Source of the DNA: Ichthyosporea sp. XGB-2017a
Taxonomy: Eukaryota; Opisthokonta; Ichthyosporea
Direction: 5' to 3'
Assembly (NCBI GenBank): GCA_002811675.1
Contig: PDIM01010353.1
Location: forward strand, 67,087-95,395
Length of the DNA stretch: 28,309 bases
The notes beneath the pieces were generated by a model that saw only the letters and a list, made by a program, of their open reading frames with translations, did not search any database and had not been told where the DNA came from. The translations under genes were made by a program, and so were the position numbers. This document shows, piece by piece, positions 2,257-23,923 of the stretch; the stretch's first letter is position 1; each line of letters starts with the position of its first letter.

Positions 2257-2610
2257 TGTACTAAAGAAAGAAAGAAACAGGGAAAACAGCAAAAATTCGA
2301 GGACAAAAAATGAAAATTCAAAAATCAAAATCAAAATAAAAAAGAAAAAATTATAAAAAAAAAATGGCGGGAAAAAAAATTTTCTTTTTTTTTTTTTTTT
2401 TTTTTTTTGTAATTTGGTTTTGTTTCTTTTGTTTTGATTGACTACTGAAATCTAATTTATTGTAAAGGAATCTTGAGTTTCTTTTAAAGAAAAAGAAAGA
2501 AAGAAAATTAATCCGAACGGATAGAAATTAATTTATTGGAAAAAGGCAAAAGAAAAGAAAAAAAAACAAAAAGAAAATTGTTAAAGCTTTTTTAATTGAA
2601 AAGATCAAAA
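2257..2610. other. Intergenic gap, tandem genes
   Basis: The 354 bases between the transporter stop and the arrestin ATG are very A/T rich, with a T24 run at 2385-2408 and oligo-A tracts just before the arrestin start. No coding potential or RNA gene is seen. It probably holds the 3' end of the transporter transcript and the arrestin promoter. Confidence 0.6.
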
Positions 2611-4689
2611 ATGTTGACTTCAAAGGAGCAAGTGAAGACCTCTCCCGCAAAAGATGCCATGACAACCGTGAATACAACGGAAATGAGAGGGCCACCAAGG
2701 CCTCCTCCACCCGCTTCTATGGGTTCAACGGGTAACATCAGCCCACAGGTGTCTAATGGGTCTATAAATGGAACTGATTCACCTGGAGAATATGCTCGAG
2801 AAAGTGATAACCTCAATCCATTGTATGATGATGTTCGTAGAAGTTATTATAGTCCTATTTTAGAGCAACCCCAAGAGAGGTTTGGGGATCAGCAGACTCC
2901 AGTTGGTTTGCCACCAGCTCATCCATTAGCTAATGAAGCCCATTCAGTATCGTCGGAGAAGACTGAATGCCCTGGGTTTATCAATTTAGAAATGAATCAA
3001 AACTGCGGGGTGTCTGGGCAATCTGTTTTTGGAAGGATGAAGTTAAAGATCAAAAGGGACATCAAAGTGCTGGGGATGGAGGTAGAGTTTGTGGGGGAAG
3101 AAATTCTGCCTAAAAAGTCTGGAAATAGGCTAATCACGAAAATTAGAAACAACATTGTGCAAACACCCGAGATGGAAAAATCATCGGGTCGCTCAATTGC
3201 TGGACGAGTATCAAAGGGAACGTATATCGTTCCTTTTAGCCTTCGCCTTCCCGAAAAACTGCCCTCCAGTTTTAGCGTTTCTGGTTACAAGGTAGAGTAC
3301 ACTCTTGGCTGTCGCATTGCTTCGGATGAAGGTGTTTTTGCGGAATATGTCAGATTCGCTATCGTGGAAAGCGAAAGTGCGTCTCCTTTGCCCGAGCCTC
3401 AGTTGTATAGCGCCAAAGGCAAATTTTTTTGGGGTGGTGGGCGTGAAATAACTTTGTTTGCACAGTTGCAAAACGCTTCGAGCATATGTTCAGGTGACCC
3501 TATAATATTGAAAATTGCAGTTGATAATTTATCCTCGAAGAAGCTTAACCTTTCTGTGAATTTGAAGCGCAAGATTGTCCCTAAAAATAATGTGAACAAT
3601 ACTGTCACCAAGACGTTGAAACACCAAAAGTATAAAGGCCATACCGTTCGCGCCAGTGAAAAAAGGGAGTTTTGTTTGGTGCTTGATGATTATCAGCGAA
3701 GCTTCTCATTGGCCTTGACTGAATTATTTACAGTGGTGCATGAGATTGAAGTCATAGCCTCACCCACTTCGATTGGCTTTGGAAGTGAAGTGAAACTGAG
3801 CTTTCCAATTACGCTTAAGGATCCTCTTGGCAAATTTGCATTCTGTTTTCCTCCTTTTGATAGCCCTGTGGAGATACGGTTTCAGAATTCTTTCTTAGGA
3901 TCAGAGCATGGTGTTATTCAAAGCAAAGGGGCACTTCCAAGCTCTGCGGGCTCGAGCCCACCCAGCTCGCCTTTGGGTATGCATATTGACAATAGTCGAC
4001 AAGCTGGTCCACTACCACAGAAGAATGGTTTTAATGCGCCCCATATGCCAATGAACCAAGATCCTTATTACCACGCACCCAATTATTCATACGGCCCAAA
4101 CGACCTGCAGCCCTCTGGGGTTCAACCACAGGCCTACAACGCAAAGCCATATGGGTCAGAGTATCAATATCCACAAGCTACTTATGGGTCTGAGTATCAG
4201 TATCCTCAACCATCAAATTCAAAGCCCCATGAATCTGAGTATCAATATCCACAAGCATCAAACTCAAAACCTAATGAATCTGAGTATCAGTATCCACAAG
4301 GGCCAAGTTCAAAACCCAATGAGTCTGAGTATACTTACCCGCAAAGCTCAAGCTCAAGACAGGATGCGTTGGGAATTCAATATCCACGGGTGCCAACCCC
4401 AAGAGCCAATGAAGGGGAATATCAATACCCACAGGCGTCAAGCTCGAAGCCCCATGGATCTGAATACAGCTATCCCCAACCCGATGCCCGAGTACCAAGT
4501 GAGGATTCCGTTTATAGCTATCCTATGCAAGCCCCTGCTGCCTCGTCTAGCTCAAGTGACAGTAAAGGAAAGGCACGTACAAAACCAATTGCACCGTATA
4601 ATGATGAATCTGGGTTTTCGGAAACTATCTATACGCCCTATTCCGAACAAACACCTGGTTATTCACCAAGTCTTCCTCCCAGAAAATGA
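2611..4689 (+). CDS. Alpha-arrestin-like protein with tyrosine-rich C-terminal repeats
   Basis: A 692-residue protein. Residues 1-115 are disordered and Pro/Ser rich, followed by an arrestin N domain (about 120-260, with the GTYIVPFSLRLPEKLPSSF strand typical of the family) and an arrestin C domain (about 265-420, ending in GSEVKLSFPITLKDPLG). The rest, from about 430, is a disordered tail carrying about eight 15-residue repeats around a Y-x-Y-P core. Family members act as adaptors that recruit ubiquitin ligases to plasma-membrane cargo for endocytosis, or sense pH (Rim8/PalF). I see no PPxY motif for Rsp5/NEDD4, so how it would recruit a ligase is unclear. The only start in frame upstream is a TTG at 2596, so ATG 2611 is used. 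Its stop faces the CCDC61 stop across 104 bases. Confidence 0.85.
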   Translation: MLTSKEQVKTSPAKDAMTTVNTTEMRGPPRPPPPASMGSTGNISPQVSNGSINGTDSPGEYARESDNLNPLYDDVRRSYYSPILEQPQERFGDQQTPVGLPPAHPLANEAHSVSSEKTECPGFINLEMNQNCGVSGQSVFGRMKLKIKRDIKVLGMEVEFVGEEILPKKSGNRLITKIRNNIVQTPEMEKSSGRSIAGRVSKGTYIVPFSLRLPEKLPSSFSVSGYKVEYTLGCRIASDEGVFAEYVRFAIVESESASPLPEPQLYSAKGKFFWGGGREITLFAQLQNASSICSGDPIILKIAVDNLSSKKLNLSVNLKRKIVPKNNVNNTVTKTLKHQKYKGHTVRASEKREFCLVLDDYQRSFSLALTELFTVVHEIEVIASPTSIGFGSEVKLSFPITLKDPLGKFAFCFPPFDSPVEIRFQNSFLGSEHGVIQSKGALPSSAGSSPPSSPLGMHIDNSRQAGPLPQKNGFNAPHMPMNQDPYYHAPNYSYGPNDLQPSGVQPQAYNAKPYGSEYQYPQATYGSEYQYPQPSNSKPHESEYQYPQASNSKPNESEYQYPQGPSSKPNESEYTYPQSSSSRQDALGIQYPRVPTPRANEGEYQYPQASSSKPHGSEYSYPQPDARVPSEDSVYSYPMQAPAASSSSSDSKGKARTKPIAPYNDESGFSETIYTPYSEQTPGYSPSLPPRK
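4156..4530 (+). repeat. In-frame 45-bp tandem repeats (YxYP repeats) in the arrestin tail
   Basis: About eight degenerate 15-residue units of the type SEYQYPQASNSKPNE. The first unit is shorter (11 residues) and the last two diverge. The period is 45 bases, in frame with the arrestin gene. The Y-x-Y-P core is kept in nearly all units while the linkers vary, which suggests selection on the motif rather than simple slippage. Confidence 0.9.
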
Positions 4690-15940: not shown

Positions 15941-16843
15941 ATGAAGGTGACTTTGAAATTAGTGATATTGACTGCATTGATCGCTTCAATTAGCGCTGTT
16001 GATCTGGAATGCAATAGCTCGTTGGCACAGAACGACGTTGAGGCGCTTAGCAAGTCTGTTACTGCCTTCCTTTCTGCAGCAGCACAATCTTGGTCACAGT
16101 TTTCTTTGCCCGACGGATATACAAATTCTGGCTCCCCAGACCATTTTACTGCTTCCAACAAAGTAGCTCCTGGAAAGTTAACTGTCCCCAACTTTAACTA
16201 TACAGCATATTGCAATAAGGTCGGGCCTCAGGCCAAAGATATATTCAATGTTCTGGAAAGCAAACAATGTATAAAGAATGAGCCTGCCTGGGCAAAGTGG
16301 GTTTCCAGTGCGGACACAGAAAGTGTTTATGATACAATTTCTTCTGATAGCTATACACCATGCTATATCTCTTTGTCAGAGGGGCTGAAACATGCTGCAT
16401 TTAGCGCTGTCATGTGCAATGATGATTTGTATTCAAAGTACGGGCAGGCCGTGTTTTTAAGTGATTCTAGAGTTGTTTCAACGGCAACAGTTGGCTCTTA
16501 CAACATGGATATGATTGAGCTCAACGACTCCGAGACGACCACTGCTGTGTGCAATGACAATAACTTTTTGGCCACCTATGTGAACTCTGGTTCTGGAAAA
16601 GCTAAATTCAATATTTTAAATCTCTCGTACGGTCTCAGCAGCCTTTTGCCCAATTGTGACCTAAGTCCTGTTAAAAATGGATTCGAAGGTCCCCAAAAGT
16701 GGCTAAAAGGGACTATGGATCAATCAAGAGGCGCGGTTTATTCCGTATGCTCAAAGCAAGGCAAAAGTAATGTCGGGGATTCTAATATTCTTGTTCCCTC
16801 TTTGACCGTTGTTATCTCCACTCTCTCATTCATGCTTCTCTAA
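15941..16843 (+). CDS. Secreted, probably GPI-anchored orphan protein with eight cysteines
   Basis: A 300-residue protein I do not recognise. It has a clear signal peptide (residues 1-19, cut after SISA) and a hydrophobic C-terminal tail (about 283-300) with no basic residues after it, preceded by small residues around 276-281: the pattern of a GPI attachment signal. Between them are eight cysteines (24, 91, 110, 141, 159, 204, 239, 270), an even number compatible with four disulfides, and N-glycosylation sequons at N25, N86, N195 and N227. The size and layout suggest a cell-surface or wall protein. Elicitin and CFEM families were considered, but the cysteine spacing does not fit. A TATA box and a long upstream gap suggest regulated expression. 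Confidence 0.75.
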   Translation: MKVTLKLVILTALIASISAVDLECNSSLAQNDVEALSKSVTAFLSAAAQSWSQFSLPDGYTNSGSPDHFTASNKVAPGKLTVPNFNYTAYCNKVGPQAKDIFNVLESKQCIKNEPAWAKWVSSADTESVYDTISSDSYTPCYISLSEGLKHAAFSAVMCNDDLYSKYGQAVFLSDSRVVSTATVGSYNMDMIELNDSETTTAVCNDNNFLATYVNSGSGKAKFNILNLSYGLSSLLPNCDLSPVKNGFEGPQKWLKGTMDQSRGAVYSVCSKQGKSNVGDSNILVPSLTVVISTLSFMLL

Positions 16844-20395: not shown

Positions 20396-23300
20396 ATGCG
20401 TGGGATGAGATATATTTTATGGGTGGGGCTACAGGTGTTGATTTGGTGTGCTGTTTTGATCGAATGTCAAGCAGATAGGACTGGGAATATAAAATCTGCG
20501 GCTGAATCAGAGGAGGCCTTGTCGACGTATGAGCAACCATTCAATAGAGCGTTTTGCCCTGATTGTGCTGTGACTGCAAAAAACTTCTCTCTTCGACTTT
20601 TGCACACAGACTACTTGGATTCCCTAGTAGCACAGTCGCGTAGTGGTAATGGGGGCTTTGCAAGACTTGACTCGGGGCTGTCACAGCTCCGGAAGGAAGT
20701 TGGGACTCCTTCCTTGACCGTGGATGCAGGTAACTTCTTTGGATTCACTTCGTTCTTTCAATTCTTCCAAGGGTACTATATCAGTCAATATATGGCCTAC
20801 ATGGGGTACAACGCTGTAAATCTGGGATACAGTGAGGTGTTTGAGAGTAACTTACTTAGCCTTGCAAATTTCAAAAGTTATAATAACACAAGTGTTGTTT
20901 CATCTAATGTAAATGGTTTGCAGTCCACTCCAACATCGGAGTATTTTATGCCTTTTGCTGTAACGGAGGTGAATGGCACTGATGGTCAAACAGTAAAAGT
21001 GGGAATTGTTGGCTATGCTGATTCGAATGTTTGCAAGATGTCTGTTTGCTTGAGGACTATATTTATCTCTGAAATCGTAAGCTCCTTATCCACAGCAATA
21101 TTTCAATTACTGGGTACTCATCCTGATGTTAATGTTATAGTAGCGTTGAGTTCTGCGGGATATGAAATTGATGTTGAAATAGCTGCTCAACTACAATTTG
21201 TGAATGTCATTGTGGGGACTAGATTGAGCAATCAACACGGGTCTTCGGGTGATAACGAAACACCCATATTTGCAGTTGCTAAAAATGCTGACCTGGAACC
21301 AGTTCTATTGACTTCAACGAAGGGAAATTCTGAATACATTGGTATTGTGGACTTGGAATTTGTGAATAGTATTCCCACTTCTTGGAATAATGCTTCTTTA
21401 TTTTTAGCCAACTGTGATATTTCTACTCCCTGTGTCCAACCAAATGCAACCATGGAAGAAGAAATTAAACATCTGTATATGGATATAGAAGATAGCACTC
21501 ATCAAGTTATTGGAAATGTGGGTGGAAACTACACAGATTTAAACTGTAGAACGGAATACTGCCAAGCTGGTCAGTTCATAGCTAACAGTGCTTTGCAGCG
21601 ACTGAATGAGGATTATCAGTCTTGTGATTTCTTCTTTTTTGATGGTGGAAGCGCTAACCATAGCATTGGGCCTGGAAATGTCACTGTTCTTGATGTTGAT
21701 CTTCTATATCCTTATCCAGATAAGGCATCGTTCTTTCTTATATCAGGTGAAATTTTAATAAGCGTTGTGCGGATGTTCATGCAGGGCACATATCAATTTC
21801 TTCAGAATGCTGGGCTTCGCATTTCGAAGAACTGGGATAATCCCAGCGTTATATCAGTGACAAATGTAGAAGTGCTTCGTGATGGAGTGTGGACTGAGGT
21901 CGTTCCAACGAATTTATATAATGGGTGTGCGACGGACTACATTAGTAAAGGGAATGATGGTTATACAATTCTTGCACGCAATGTTTCGGGTGCGTTTGAT
22001 GATGGTCCATCGATTGACTATTTGTTGCGAAAGCAGTTTATGGTTGCAAACATCACAAATATGTCCTTTCCAACAACGCTGCCATACAACTTTCAAAATA
22101 GTACTCAAACAAAACCGAACTTCGTAGCCTCGTGCACTTACGAAGAGAAATTGAACGCATCGAACTTTAATTTCACGGATTATTGTAGTGTCGCGGATCG
22201 CTCTTCCGAAGAGATGGCATTACTCATATCACCCAAAACTTCAAAATTTCTTCCGGACGTGAGATCTATTTCCATTAAAGTGAAAGCGACGAATGTTAAT
22301 GAGAAAGTGCAAGCTCAATTAGCTATTTATGCAGGTCTTTCTGATTCTGGACCCTTAGTTACTTATTTTGAAACAGAGGACCTTATAGGTCTTGACAAAG
22401 TTGTGCATGTACCGTCTTCTGCTGCTTATATAGCGTTTGTTAGTGACGCGCTCAGTGGGGGTGAAGATACTTTAGAATTTTTTTACGAGGCTGAAACTTT
22501 TTGTAGCCCGGGCTATTACATACAGAAAGTTAACAATATCAGCAGTTGTATGCCATGTAGTGCTGGTTCTTATAGGAATGAAGGTGCAGATGACAGCGAA
22601 TGTAAGGTGTGTCCCAAAGGAACATATTCAAGCTTAGACGGATCTCCGTCGTGCACAAAATGTGATGGGCATATTGGATTGTATTCGGACTTGGCGGGTT
22701 CTACGGGATGTACATACTGTTCTGGGACCAGGAAAACTGTAATTGTGGATAGCTCGGGTAGCGGTATTGCATGTGACTGTGAAACCCCTCTCATAGGACC
22801 TGACTGTGTAAATCCCGAGGATATTTTGAGCTTGACTGGGGACTTTGGTATTCTAATAGTCGTGTTATCTGGTGTGGGTCTCATGTCAGTTATTGTCATT
22901 ACCATTCTGCTTATAGCATACCGAAGACATGGGGTTGTTAAAGCATCTTCGCTAATGTTTTGCCTATTTGTTCTCTTTGGCCTCTTTGTTGCCTTTTGTG
23001 CGCCTCCGTTTTATTTTGGAAGACCAACTACCGCAGTGTGTTATTTGAGGGACTACCTGTTAGTGTTTGGTGCTGTGATTATTTTTGCGAGCCTGGTTAC
23101 TAAGCTATGGAGAGTGTGGCGCGTTTTTGATAACCCTGACCTTGAAGGAAGCAAGTCATACTTGACAGATTCTAGATTGGCACTGTATATTTTATGTTTG
23201 GTGGGAATAGATTTTGTAATTGTGGTGGGATTAACTTTTGTGGATAAGCGCTATGTCAGTGCCCAAGTAAGCTCTTCTGGATATGTTGACTATGTTTGCA

Positions 23301-23923
23301 AGGGAGGGGAATATGAATTTATTACAGCTTCTGTTTTTAATTTCATGCTTCTTATTGCTGGACTTTTTCTGTCATTTAAAACGAGAAAAGTACCCGCAAT
23401 TTTTGCAGAAGCGAAATACGTTGGCTATAGTATTTATGTAACAGCTGCCCTAGTTGTTGTTTGTGTGTGTGTTGTTGCCGGATTGCGGGGTCAAAATCAT
23501 ACATTTATTAAGCTTTGCTCTATAACAATTGAACTTGTTGCTATCACAATACTTTGTTTCATATTTCTCCCCAAACTTTTCTCCCTCAAAAAATATTCGA
23601 GCACCGATTCGTTTGATGATCACCGCCCCGAATTTTCATCTTCCACATCTTCTGTGCAGCTTAACAAGGCCAGGAAGGATGATACATCAGTCCTTCTTAA
23701 CTTCTCCTCTTCTAGTATTATGAAATTCTGCAAGTACAATCGAACCTTGGTTGCTAATATAATGGAATCCACCTTTGCAAATGTAGAACTTGGGGAAACT
23801 CCGAGAGAGCGACTCCTTGCATTAGCCAAAGCCTCTGGCCTTGAAATGTACGACCAAGTTCCTTCTCTAGAGCCTACGAACTCCATGAACATGGGCGATA
23901 TCCATGACTGCCACACCGAATAG
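20396..23923 (+). CDS. Class C (GABA-B-like) GPCR with catalytically dead 5'-nucleotidase ectodomain
   Basis: A 1175-residue receptor. Signal peptide 1-26; 5'-nucleotidase/metallophosphatase-like N domain about 46-340; 5'-nucleotidase C domain about 365-560; further ectodomain to about 700; Cys-rich ephrin-receptor-like module about 703-804; seven helices about 813-1062; cytoplasmic tail of about 110 residues. The 7TM part shows GABA-B hallmarks: RRHGVVKASS after TM1, the TM3 cysteine in AVCYLRDYLL, KLWRVWRVF, and FLPKL at TM7. In the nucleotidase part, usual motif HTNDxH reads HTDYLD (70-75), DAGD reads DAGN (N113), GNHE reads GYSE (144-147), SH reads SS (252-253) and GGHSQ/T reads GTRLS (274-278), so the metal site is gone. 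The base-stacking loop survives as GNDGY (519-523). It probably senses a ligand and couples to G proteins; the ligand is unknown, and a nucleotide or nucleoside is a guess. ATG 20396 is chosen; 20405 is an alternative. Confidence 0.9.
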   Translation: MRGMRYILWVGLQVLIWCAVLIECQADRTGNIKSAAESEEALSTYEQPFNRAFCPDCAVTAKNFSLRLLHTDYLDSLVAQSRSGNGGFARLDSGLSQLRKEVGTPSLTVDAGNFFGFTSFFQFFQGYYISQYMAYMGYNAVNLGYSEVFESNLLSLANFKSYNNTSVVSSNVNGLQSTPTSEYFMPFAVTEVNGTDGQTVKVGIVGYADSNVCKMSVCLRTIFISEIVSSLSTAIFQLLGTHPDVNVIVALSSAGYEIDVEIAAQLQFVNVIVGTRLSNQHGSSGDNETPIFAVAKNADLEPVLLTSTKGNSEYIGIVDLEFVNSIPTSWNNASLFLANCDISTPCVQPNATMEEEIKHLYMDIEDSTHQVIGNVGGNYTDLNCRTEYCQAGQFIANSALQRLNEDYQSCDFFFFDGGSANHSIGPGNVTVLDVDLLYPYPDKASFFLISGEILISVVRMFMQGTYQFLQNAGLRISKNWDNPSVISVTNVEVLRDGVWTEVVPTNLYNGCATDYISKGNDGYTILARNVSGAFDDGPSIDYLLRKQFMVANITNMSFPTTLPYNFQNSTQTKPNFVASCTYEEKLNASNFNFTDYCSVADRSSEEMALLISPKTSKFLPDVRSISIKVKATNVNEKVQAQLAIYAGLSDSGPLVTYFETEDLIGLDKVVHVPSSAAYIAFVSDALSGGEDTLEFFYEAETFCSPGYYIQKVNNISSCMPCSAGSYRNEGADDSECKVCPKGTYSSLDGSPSCTKCDGHIGLYSDLAGSTGCTYCSGTRKTVIVDSSGSGIACDCETPLIGPDCVNPEDILSLTGDFGILIVVLSGVGLMSVIVITILLIAYRRHGVVKASSLMFCLFVLFGLFVAFCAPPFYFGRPTTAVCYLRDYLLVFGAVIIFASLVTKLWRVWRVFDNPDLEGSKSYLTDSRLALYILCLVGIDFVIVVGLTFVDKRYVSAQVSSSGYVDYVCKGGEYEFITASVFNFMLLIAGLFLSFKTRKVPAIFAEAKYVGYSIYVTAALVVVCVCVVAGLRGQNHTFIKLCSITIELVAITILCFIFLPKLFSLKKYSSTDSFDDHRPEFSSSTSSVQLNKARKDDTSVLLNFSSSSIMKFCKYNRTLVANIMESTFANVELGETPRERLLALAKASGLEMYDQVPSLEPTNSMNMGDIHDCHTE

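Follow-up and report, generated by a model that had tools for sequence, protein, structure and literature searches.

What does a class C G protein-coupled receptor (GPCR) sense when a 5'-nucleotidase stands where its Venus flytrap should be, and could that nucleotidase still act as an enzyme? The question is raised by the gene P0001 in the window (the whole stretch of 28,309 nucleotides analysed here), a single open frame on the + strand that runs from ATG to stop and needs no intron; the frame as listed begins at a GTG 6 bases upstream of the ATG. Its parts are the following:

20396..23923, + strand: whole gene P0001, 1175 codons plus stop
20396..20473, + strand: signal peptide-like start, residues 1-26 (hydrophobic stretch 6-24; helix 2-26 in the full-length model)
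20585..21415, + strand: N-terminal metallophosphatase-type domain, predicted to be dead, residues ~64-340 (phmmer to 2z1a and CD73; model and fold search)
21428..22030, + strand: 5_nucleotid_C substrate-binding domain, residues ~345-545 (Pfam, E 2.2e-16; fold search)
22073..22495, + strand: linker, residues 560-700, without Pfam or PDB assignment
22502..22822, + strand: Cys-rich module, residues 703-809, with 12 Cys (Ephrin_rec_like; NCD3G under the cut-off)
22829..23581, + strand: class C seven-transmembrane (7TM) part with the FKTRKVPAIFAEAKY and FLPK motifs and the C882/C968 pair (Pfam 7tm_3, alignment to mGlu1)
23582..23920, + strand: cytoplasmic tail, residues 1063-1175 (translation)

The open reading frame, Pfam, and phmmer agree on one frame that holds the signal peptide-like start, both nucleotidase domains, the Cys-rich module, and the 7TM, as a preliminary description of this DNA had read it. 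Pfam matched 5_nucleotid_C to residues 379-527 (60.8 bits, cut-off 23.6), Ephrin_rec_like to residues 706-756 (E 2.1e-6, above the cut-off), and 7tm_3 to residues 812-1060 (E 4.6e-43, 148.1 bits, curated cut-off 33.5); NCD3G reached 19.2 and 27.2 bits, under its cut-off of 38.9. No Pfam match up to E 0.1 was obtained for ANF_receptor (the Venus flytrap) in the protein or for Metallophos in the N-terminal nucleotidase domain. The NCBIfam family nadN matches P0001 from residue 80 (E 1.1e-18), and phmmer aligns residues 75-546 to the Thermus 5'-nucleotidase 2z1a (E 4.7e-20) and residues 79-526 to CD73 (E 1e-14 to 3e-14). The linker gave no Pfam match up to E 10, and its best PDB match (residues 560-709 searched) had an E value of 0.43; a CUB-like identity, suggested by eye, was dropped because neither database matched. 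The ectodomain holds 16 N-glycosylation sequons. A misassembly that joined two genes artificially is not favoured: nothing interrupts the frame, and this set of domains is on record from further unicellular relatives of animals.

Superposition of the predicted ectodomain, as proposed in the preliminary description, showed that it fits closed CD73 (structure model, fold search), with the two-domain nucleotidase fold matched over about 480 residues (Foldseek and VIA). The closed state in the prediction may simply mirror the aligned enzymes. A complete two-domain 5'-nucleotidase fold in P0001 is well supported by the model, and Pfam, phmmer, the model, and the fold search all bear out the view that a two-lobed hydrolase fold sits in the Venus flytrap position of a class C GPCR.

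The 7TM had been called GABA-B-like, a label that does not hold: the GPCR rows among the best 60 of 118 PDB matches to P0001 are all metabotropic glutamate (mGlu) receptors, to which its 7TM is nearer in sequence than to GABA-B. Seven hydrophobic peaks span residues 819-1058, and the full-length model, which served for helix counting only, shows seven helices in the 7TM at low confidence (mean pLDDT, 59.5; 7TM mostly 35-66). Alignment to mGlu1 located the class C intracellular-loop and TM7 motifs and identified C882/C968 as the TM3-ECL2 Cys pair; the loop motifs, FLPK, and this pair are what we take to be class C hallmarks. By domains and motifs, P0001 is a class C (glutamate-family) GPCR that lacks matches above the cut-off to the ANF_receptor and NCD3G domains of the mGlu/CaSR/T1R subgroup. 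It shares with mGlu and calcium-sensing receptors the order of clamshell, Cys-rich module, and class C 7TM and the FKTR..P..F.EAKY loop, but the clamshell of those receptors is a Venus flytrap, whereas that of P0001 has a nucleotidase fold, followed by Ephrin_rec_like rather than NCD3G above the cut-off. Matches to G-alpha were found at two places in the genome, where stop codons within the matches suggest introns.

Whether the nucleotidase could be active depends on seven residues that lie at the zinc ions and the phosphate in CD73: D36, H38, D85, N117, H118, H220, and H243 (PMC7939394). The CD73 numbering was placed on the letters of 7jv8 by anchoring at N390, and the other ten covered residues all fell on the correct letter. 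D36 and H38 lie upstream of the aligned CD73 letters and presumably correspond to D and H in the HTNDxH motif of the bacteria. For reference, 77 of 80 fetched bacterial relatives were aligned with MAFFT, three with frames of >900 amino acids being dropped. Each of the seven columns is invariant in 77/77 relatives, a figure that the two motifs used to fetch the bacteria partly force for the D85 and N117 columns and not for the other five. The corresponding positions in P0001 are as follows:

20612..20620, + strand: Y73 and D75 for CD73 D36 and H38 (metal), from MAFFT alone because they precede the phmmer-aligned part; D in 77/77 and H in 77/77 bacteria
20732..20734, + strand: N113 for CD73 D85 (metal), phmmer and MAFFT
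20828..20833, + strand: Y145 and S146 for CD73 N117 and H118, phmmer and MAFFT
21152..21154, + strand: S253 for CD73 H220 (metal), phmmer and MAFFT
21221..21229, + strand: R276 for CD73 H243 (metal) and S278 at the final GGHxH/N position, phmmer and MAFFT

P0001 keeps 0/7 of these residues, and the S278 column, H in all 77 bacteria, is changed as well. The loss of every metal ligand and of the catalytic His had been claimed from the letters, and the MAFFT alignment to the 77 bacteria confirms it residue by residue (Y73, D75, N113, Y145, S146, S253, R276, and S278 for D, H, D, N, H, H, H, and H). The loss stands out against the rest of the N-terminal domain, where 19 of the 39 other invariant columns are kept (p 0.017). 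Leftover activity through another set of metal ligands is not favoured, as only D75 and N113 of the seven positions could still bind metal. That the metal/catalytic site of P0001 has been erased and that the domain is catalytically dead is well supported by these alignments.

The substrate site presents a different picture. In CD73 it comprises R354, N390, R395, F417, F500, and D506, of which F417 and F500 are the aromatics that bind the base (PMC7939394). By alignment, the equivalents in P0001 are the following:

21548..21550, + strand: R385, equal to CD73 R354, kept
21641..21658, + strand: D416 and N421, equal to CD73 N390 and R395, both changed
21713..21715, + strand: Y440, equal to CD73 F417, aromatic kept
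21938..21958, + strand: Y515, equal to CD73 F500 (aromatic kept), and D521, equal to CD73 D506 (kept), to the GNDGY loop

Counting aromatic for aromatic, P0001 keeps 4/6 substrate residues (R385, Y440, Y515, and D521), a proportion not above chance when set against the 14 of 29 other invariant columns kept in the C-terminal domain (p 0.36). The GNDGY loop, to which base stacking had been ascribed, is indeed kept and supplies the substrate residue D521, but the aromatics at the base are Y440 and Y515 and not the Y of GNDGY. N421 sits in an N-H-S glycosylation sequon and could bear a glycan within the cleft.

A scan of the host assembly (25.06 Mb in 291 contigs) gave at least 6 matches to PF02872 and at least 8 to PF00149, none of the latter at the six PF02872 places. 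Four of the genes found (C160, C11, C46, and C273, the last read from two exons joined across a 111-nt GT..AG intron) are long and combine an EGF-like stretch with a nucleotidase ectodomain and a membrane part, the last with 6 hydrophobic peaks in C160 and 8 in each of the other three. The EGF-like stretches were recognized by eye, the single Pfam match (in C273) being under the cut-off. The membrane module of these four sisters gave no Pfam match above the cut-off (best E 0.12 for whole proteins and 0.16 for the module) and no solved relative (best PDB E 1.3). The sixth 5_nucleotid_C protein, C180, is without a hydrophobic peak.

Metal residues are kept at 0/7 in P0001, C160, C11, and C180 and at 1/7 in C46 and C273; substrate residues are kept at 6/6 in all four sisters and at 2/6 in C180. 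Judged by these residues, all six 5_nucleotid_C proteins found in the genome no longer have the metal site, and the profile search of the assembly, in which the best candidates were scored, found none with an intact one. R354, both aromatics, and D506 are kept in 5/5 receptor-like proteins (P0001 and the four sisters). Across these five, 2/35 metal cells are kept versus 82/195 other N-domain cells (p 8e-6) and 28/30 substrate cells versus 81/145 other C-domain cells (p 4e-5), p values that count kin proteins as independent and so overstate the case. The substrate-site excess comes from the four sisters, which are related to one another, so that their cells are not independent. In a 24-row tree the five receptor-like rows fall together (99/96, and in 100% of 200 bootstrap trees), a grouping equalled by 49 of 500 label shuffles; branches are long (P0001, 3.9; C180, 8.7), long branches meet, and the joins may be false. 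A single origin of the five proteins is plausible from this tree.

The same genome has other class C receptors. PF00003 gave ten matches in the assembly, nine of them above the cut-off. An ANF_receptor ectodomain above the Pfam cut-off was found in C68, C16, C57, C58, and C14; C86 has a PBP_like_2 ectodomain, and C218 a long repeat region without a Pfam match. By eye, C267 and C1 show a flytrap-like ectodomain and an EGF-like stretch. As to the host, the preliminary description had looked toward zoosporic fungi, but C134, which joins a partial LIM domain (by eye) to a homeodomain (Pfam) in one frame, supports a unicellular holozoan, going by what is said of such genes in PMC5560861. The same source reports an integrin pair in Corallochytrium; integrin beta and FG-GAP gave no match in our assembly, in scans whose positive controls matched 0 in one and 3/14 in another. 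Along with the intron in C273 and those suggested at the G-alpha matches, this lack counts against Corallochytrium limacisporum (0.0 introns per coding kb), which the long unbroken frames of the window call to mind; the host may be a teretosporean.

The build as such had been thought undescribed, which the literature contradicts: the combination of 5_nucleotid_C with a class C 7TM is already published. A Capsaspora glutamate-family GPCR, CASP_EFW44378.1, bears 5_nucleotid_C (Krishnan 2012, PMC3251606), and glutamate receptors of choanoflagellates and of other lineages close to metazoans carry 5_nucleotid_C and Ephrin_rec-like domains, which those of metazoans lack (eLife 2025, PMC12716839). 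Corallochytrium and Chromosphaera were among the taxa screened in the latter study, and P0001 may itself be in its supplementary list if the host genome was among them. These receptors resemble P0001 in carrying 5_nucleotid_C (and, in the 2025 report, Ephrin_rec-like) on a glutamate-family receptor of a unicellular holozoan; they are published as domain lists, and the comparison with P0001 is one of domain content, not of sequence. No discussion of their catalytic residues was found in the text seen of PMC3251606 and PMC12716839. A further nucleotidase-bearing or dead-enzyme receptor was not found among the papers listed from the open-licence literature, judged by title and start of abstract, and no nucleotidase was found in the part seen of PMC10445921. 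Among nine protein-database relatives of P0001, 7/9 (P0002 to P0005 and P0008 to P0010) carry 7tm_3 and 0/9 carry 5_nucleotid_C, a count that is not evidence of absence, as mostly the top word-sharing candidates were scored and the published Capsaspora receptor was also missed. The class C receptors mGlyR and GPR179 likewise have a ligand domain other than a flytrap, but theirs has a Cache fold and is no former enzyme (PMC12716839). Within the open-licence literature searched, what looks new is the loss of the metal/catalytic site, the retention of the clamp, and the family's use of two scaffolds.

CD73 and UshA share with P0001 the two-domain fold, and CD73 also shares the aromatic clamp, D506, R354, and the CRxxxC cysteine pair; P0001 differs from the enzymes in that it has replaced each of the seven metal/catalytic residues as well as N390 and R395 and in that its nucleotidase is fused to a Cys-rich module and a 7TM instead of being GPI-anchored or periplasmic. 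Class C receptors work as dimers of clamshells that close on a ligand. Substrate is taken up by the C-terminal domain of CD73 while the enzyme is open; this domain grips base and ribose, a domain rotation of ~100 and up to 114 degrees carries the metals to the phosphate, and the dimer forms through the C-terminal domains (PMC8677862, PMC7939394). With its dimer and its domain rotation, the nucleotidase fold thus already had both properties that a class C receptor needs. We propose, with a probability of about 50%, that P0001 is a class C GPCR in which a CD73-like pseudoenzyme clamshell shuts around a nucleoside-like ligand and, through the Cys-rich module, drives the 7TM. An extracellular nucleoside or nucleoside-like ligand would lie between Y440 and Y515 of the C-terminal domain, where D521 and R385 would hold it; the N-terminal domain would rotate shut on it without cleavage, replacing Venus flytrap closure; loss of the metals would leave the clamshell able to shut on the nucleoside and remain shut; and the Cys-rich module would pass the motion on to the 7TM, which would probably relay it to a G protein.

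A nucleoside or nucleotide ligand had been suspected from the outset, and the residues kept in P0001 and above all in its sisters speak for it, with the reservation that P0001 alone does not rise above chance; for this protein, a nucleoside-type ligand is supported in outline only. At N390 and R395 P0001 departs from the four sisters, which keep both residues; this suggests a ligand unlike theirs, perhaps without phosphate. The ligand might instead still be a phosphorylated nucleotide or another anion, bound without metal and with its charge met by R276 and R385: R276 places a positive charge at the former metal-ligand position H243, and R385 is kept. We consider this unlikely, however, since CD73 R395 (here N421), N117, and H118 are all gone, and the disappearance of everything that faced the phosphate suggests more readily that phosphate is no longer bound.

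The long branch of P0001, the changes at N390 and R395, and a substrate site that is not preferentially kept would also suit an unrelated small molecule in a reshaped pocket, for which the nucleotidase fold would be a mere two-lobed scaffold; retention of both base-binding aromatics, D506, and R354 argues against this reading, which we likewise think improbable. Pseudoenzymes frequently turn into protein-binding modules, and this precedent, together with the sequons on the ectodomain, could be taken to mean that what the dead domain recognizes is not a small ligand but a macromolecule or a partner receptor (in adhesion, as a dimer partner, or as a co-receptor). Conservation of R354, the aromatic pair, and D506 in all five receptor-like proteins makes that very unlikely. 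The preferred reading, a dead clamshell closing on a nucleoside-like ligand, has a practical consequence: the fossil active site of P0001 narrows the ligand to a short list of candidates that can be tested by binding.

A broader and more tentative possibility, which we hold to be somewhat doubtful, is that a pre-animal 5'-nucleotidase with a disarmed metal site became a reusable nucleoside-sensing ectodomain on at least two kinds of membrane module, namely that of a class C GPCR and one with six to eight hydrophobic spans. To our knowledge, few glutamate-family receptors outside animals have an established ligand. If nucleoside sensing is true, the substrate-driven domain rotation of the enzyme would have been reused as a receptor switch, the lineage would possess its own nucleoside receptor family, independent of the adenosine and P2Y receptors of animals, and nucleoside sensing would have arisen separately from animal adenosine receptors.

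Apart from P0001, the window encodes an arrestin-fold protein (2596-4689, +; Arrestin_N and Arrestin_C), whose C-terminal tail is built from 45-nt tandem repeats encoding SEYQYPQ-like units, and a 300-amino-acid protein (15941-16843, +) with a signal peptide-like start and a hydrophobic C-terminus that appears GPI-like by eye, for which Pfam gave nothing above the cut-off. Elsewhere in the assembly (L-numbered loci, local coordinates), L103 1294-2910 (+) encodes a partial LIM domain and, after it, a homeodomain; holozoans are reported to have this pairing (PMC5560861).

Two further class C GPCRs carry other ectodomains. That at L012 2120-4648 (-) is PBP_like_2, of the periplasmic-binding-protein type; that at L015 1-3732 (+), of ∼1,000 residues, had no match in Pfam and by eye has the appearance of right-handed beta-helix repeats.

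Five loci share 5_nucleotid_C with the P0001 ectodomain:
L009 584-5242 (-), dead-nucleotidase-ectodomain gene
L010 2818-7302 (+), dead-nucleotidase-ectodomain gene
L011 2623-6999 (+), dead-nucleotidase-ectodomain gene
L021 2-4036 (-), dead-nucleotidase-ectodomain gene
L022 1360-3360 (-), 5_nucleotid_C protein

The L022 protein, in which no hydrophobic peak was found, retains 0/7 metal-site and 2/6 substrate-site residues of CD73; its N-terminus, MGCGGS, is myristoylation-like.

The other four genes encode an EGF-like stretch (recognized by eye), a membrane part with six to eight hydrophobic peaks, which had nothing above the cut-off in Pfam and no match in the PDB, and long tails thereafter. 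They are a second receptor-like type.
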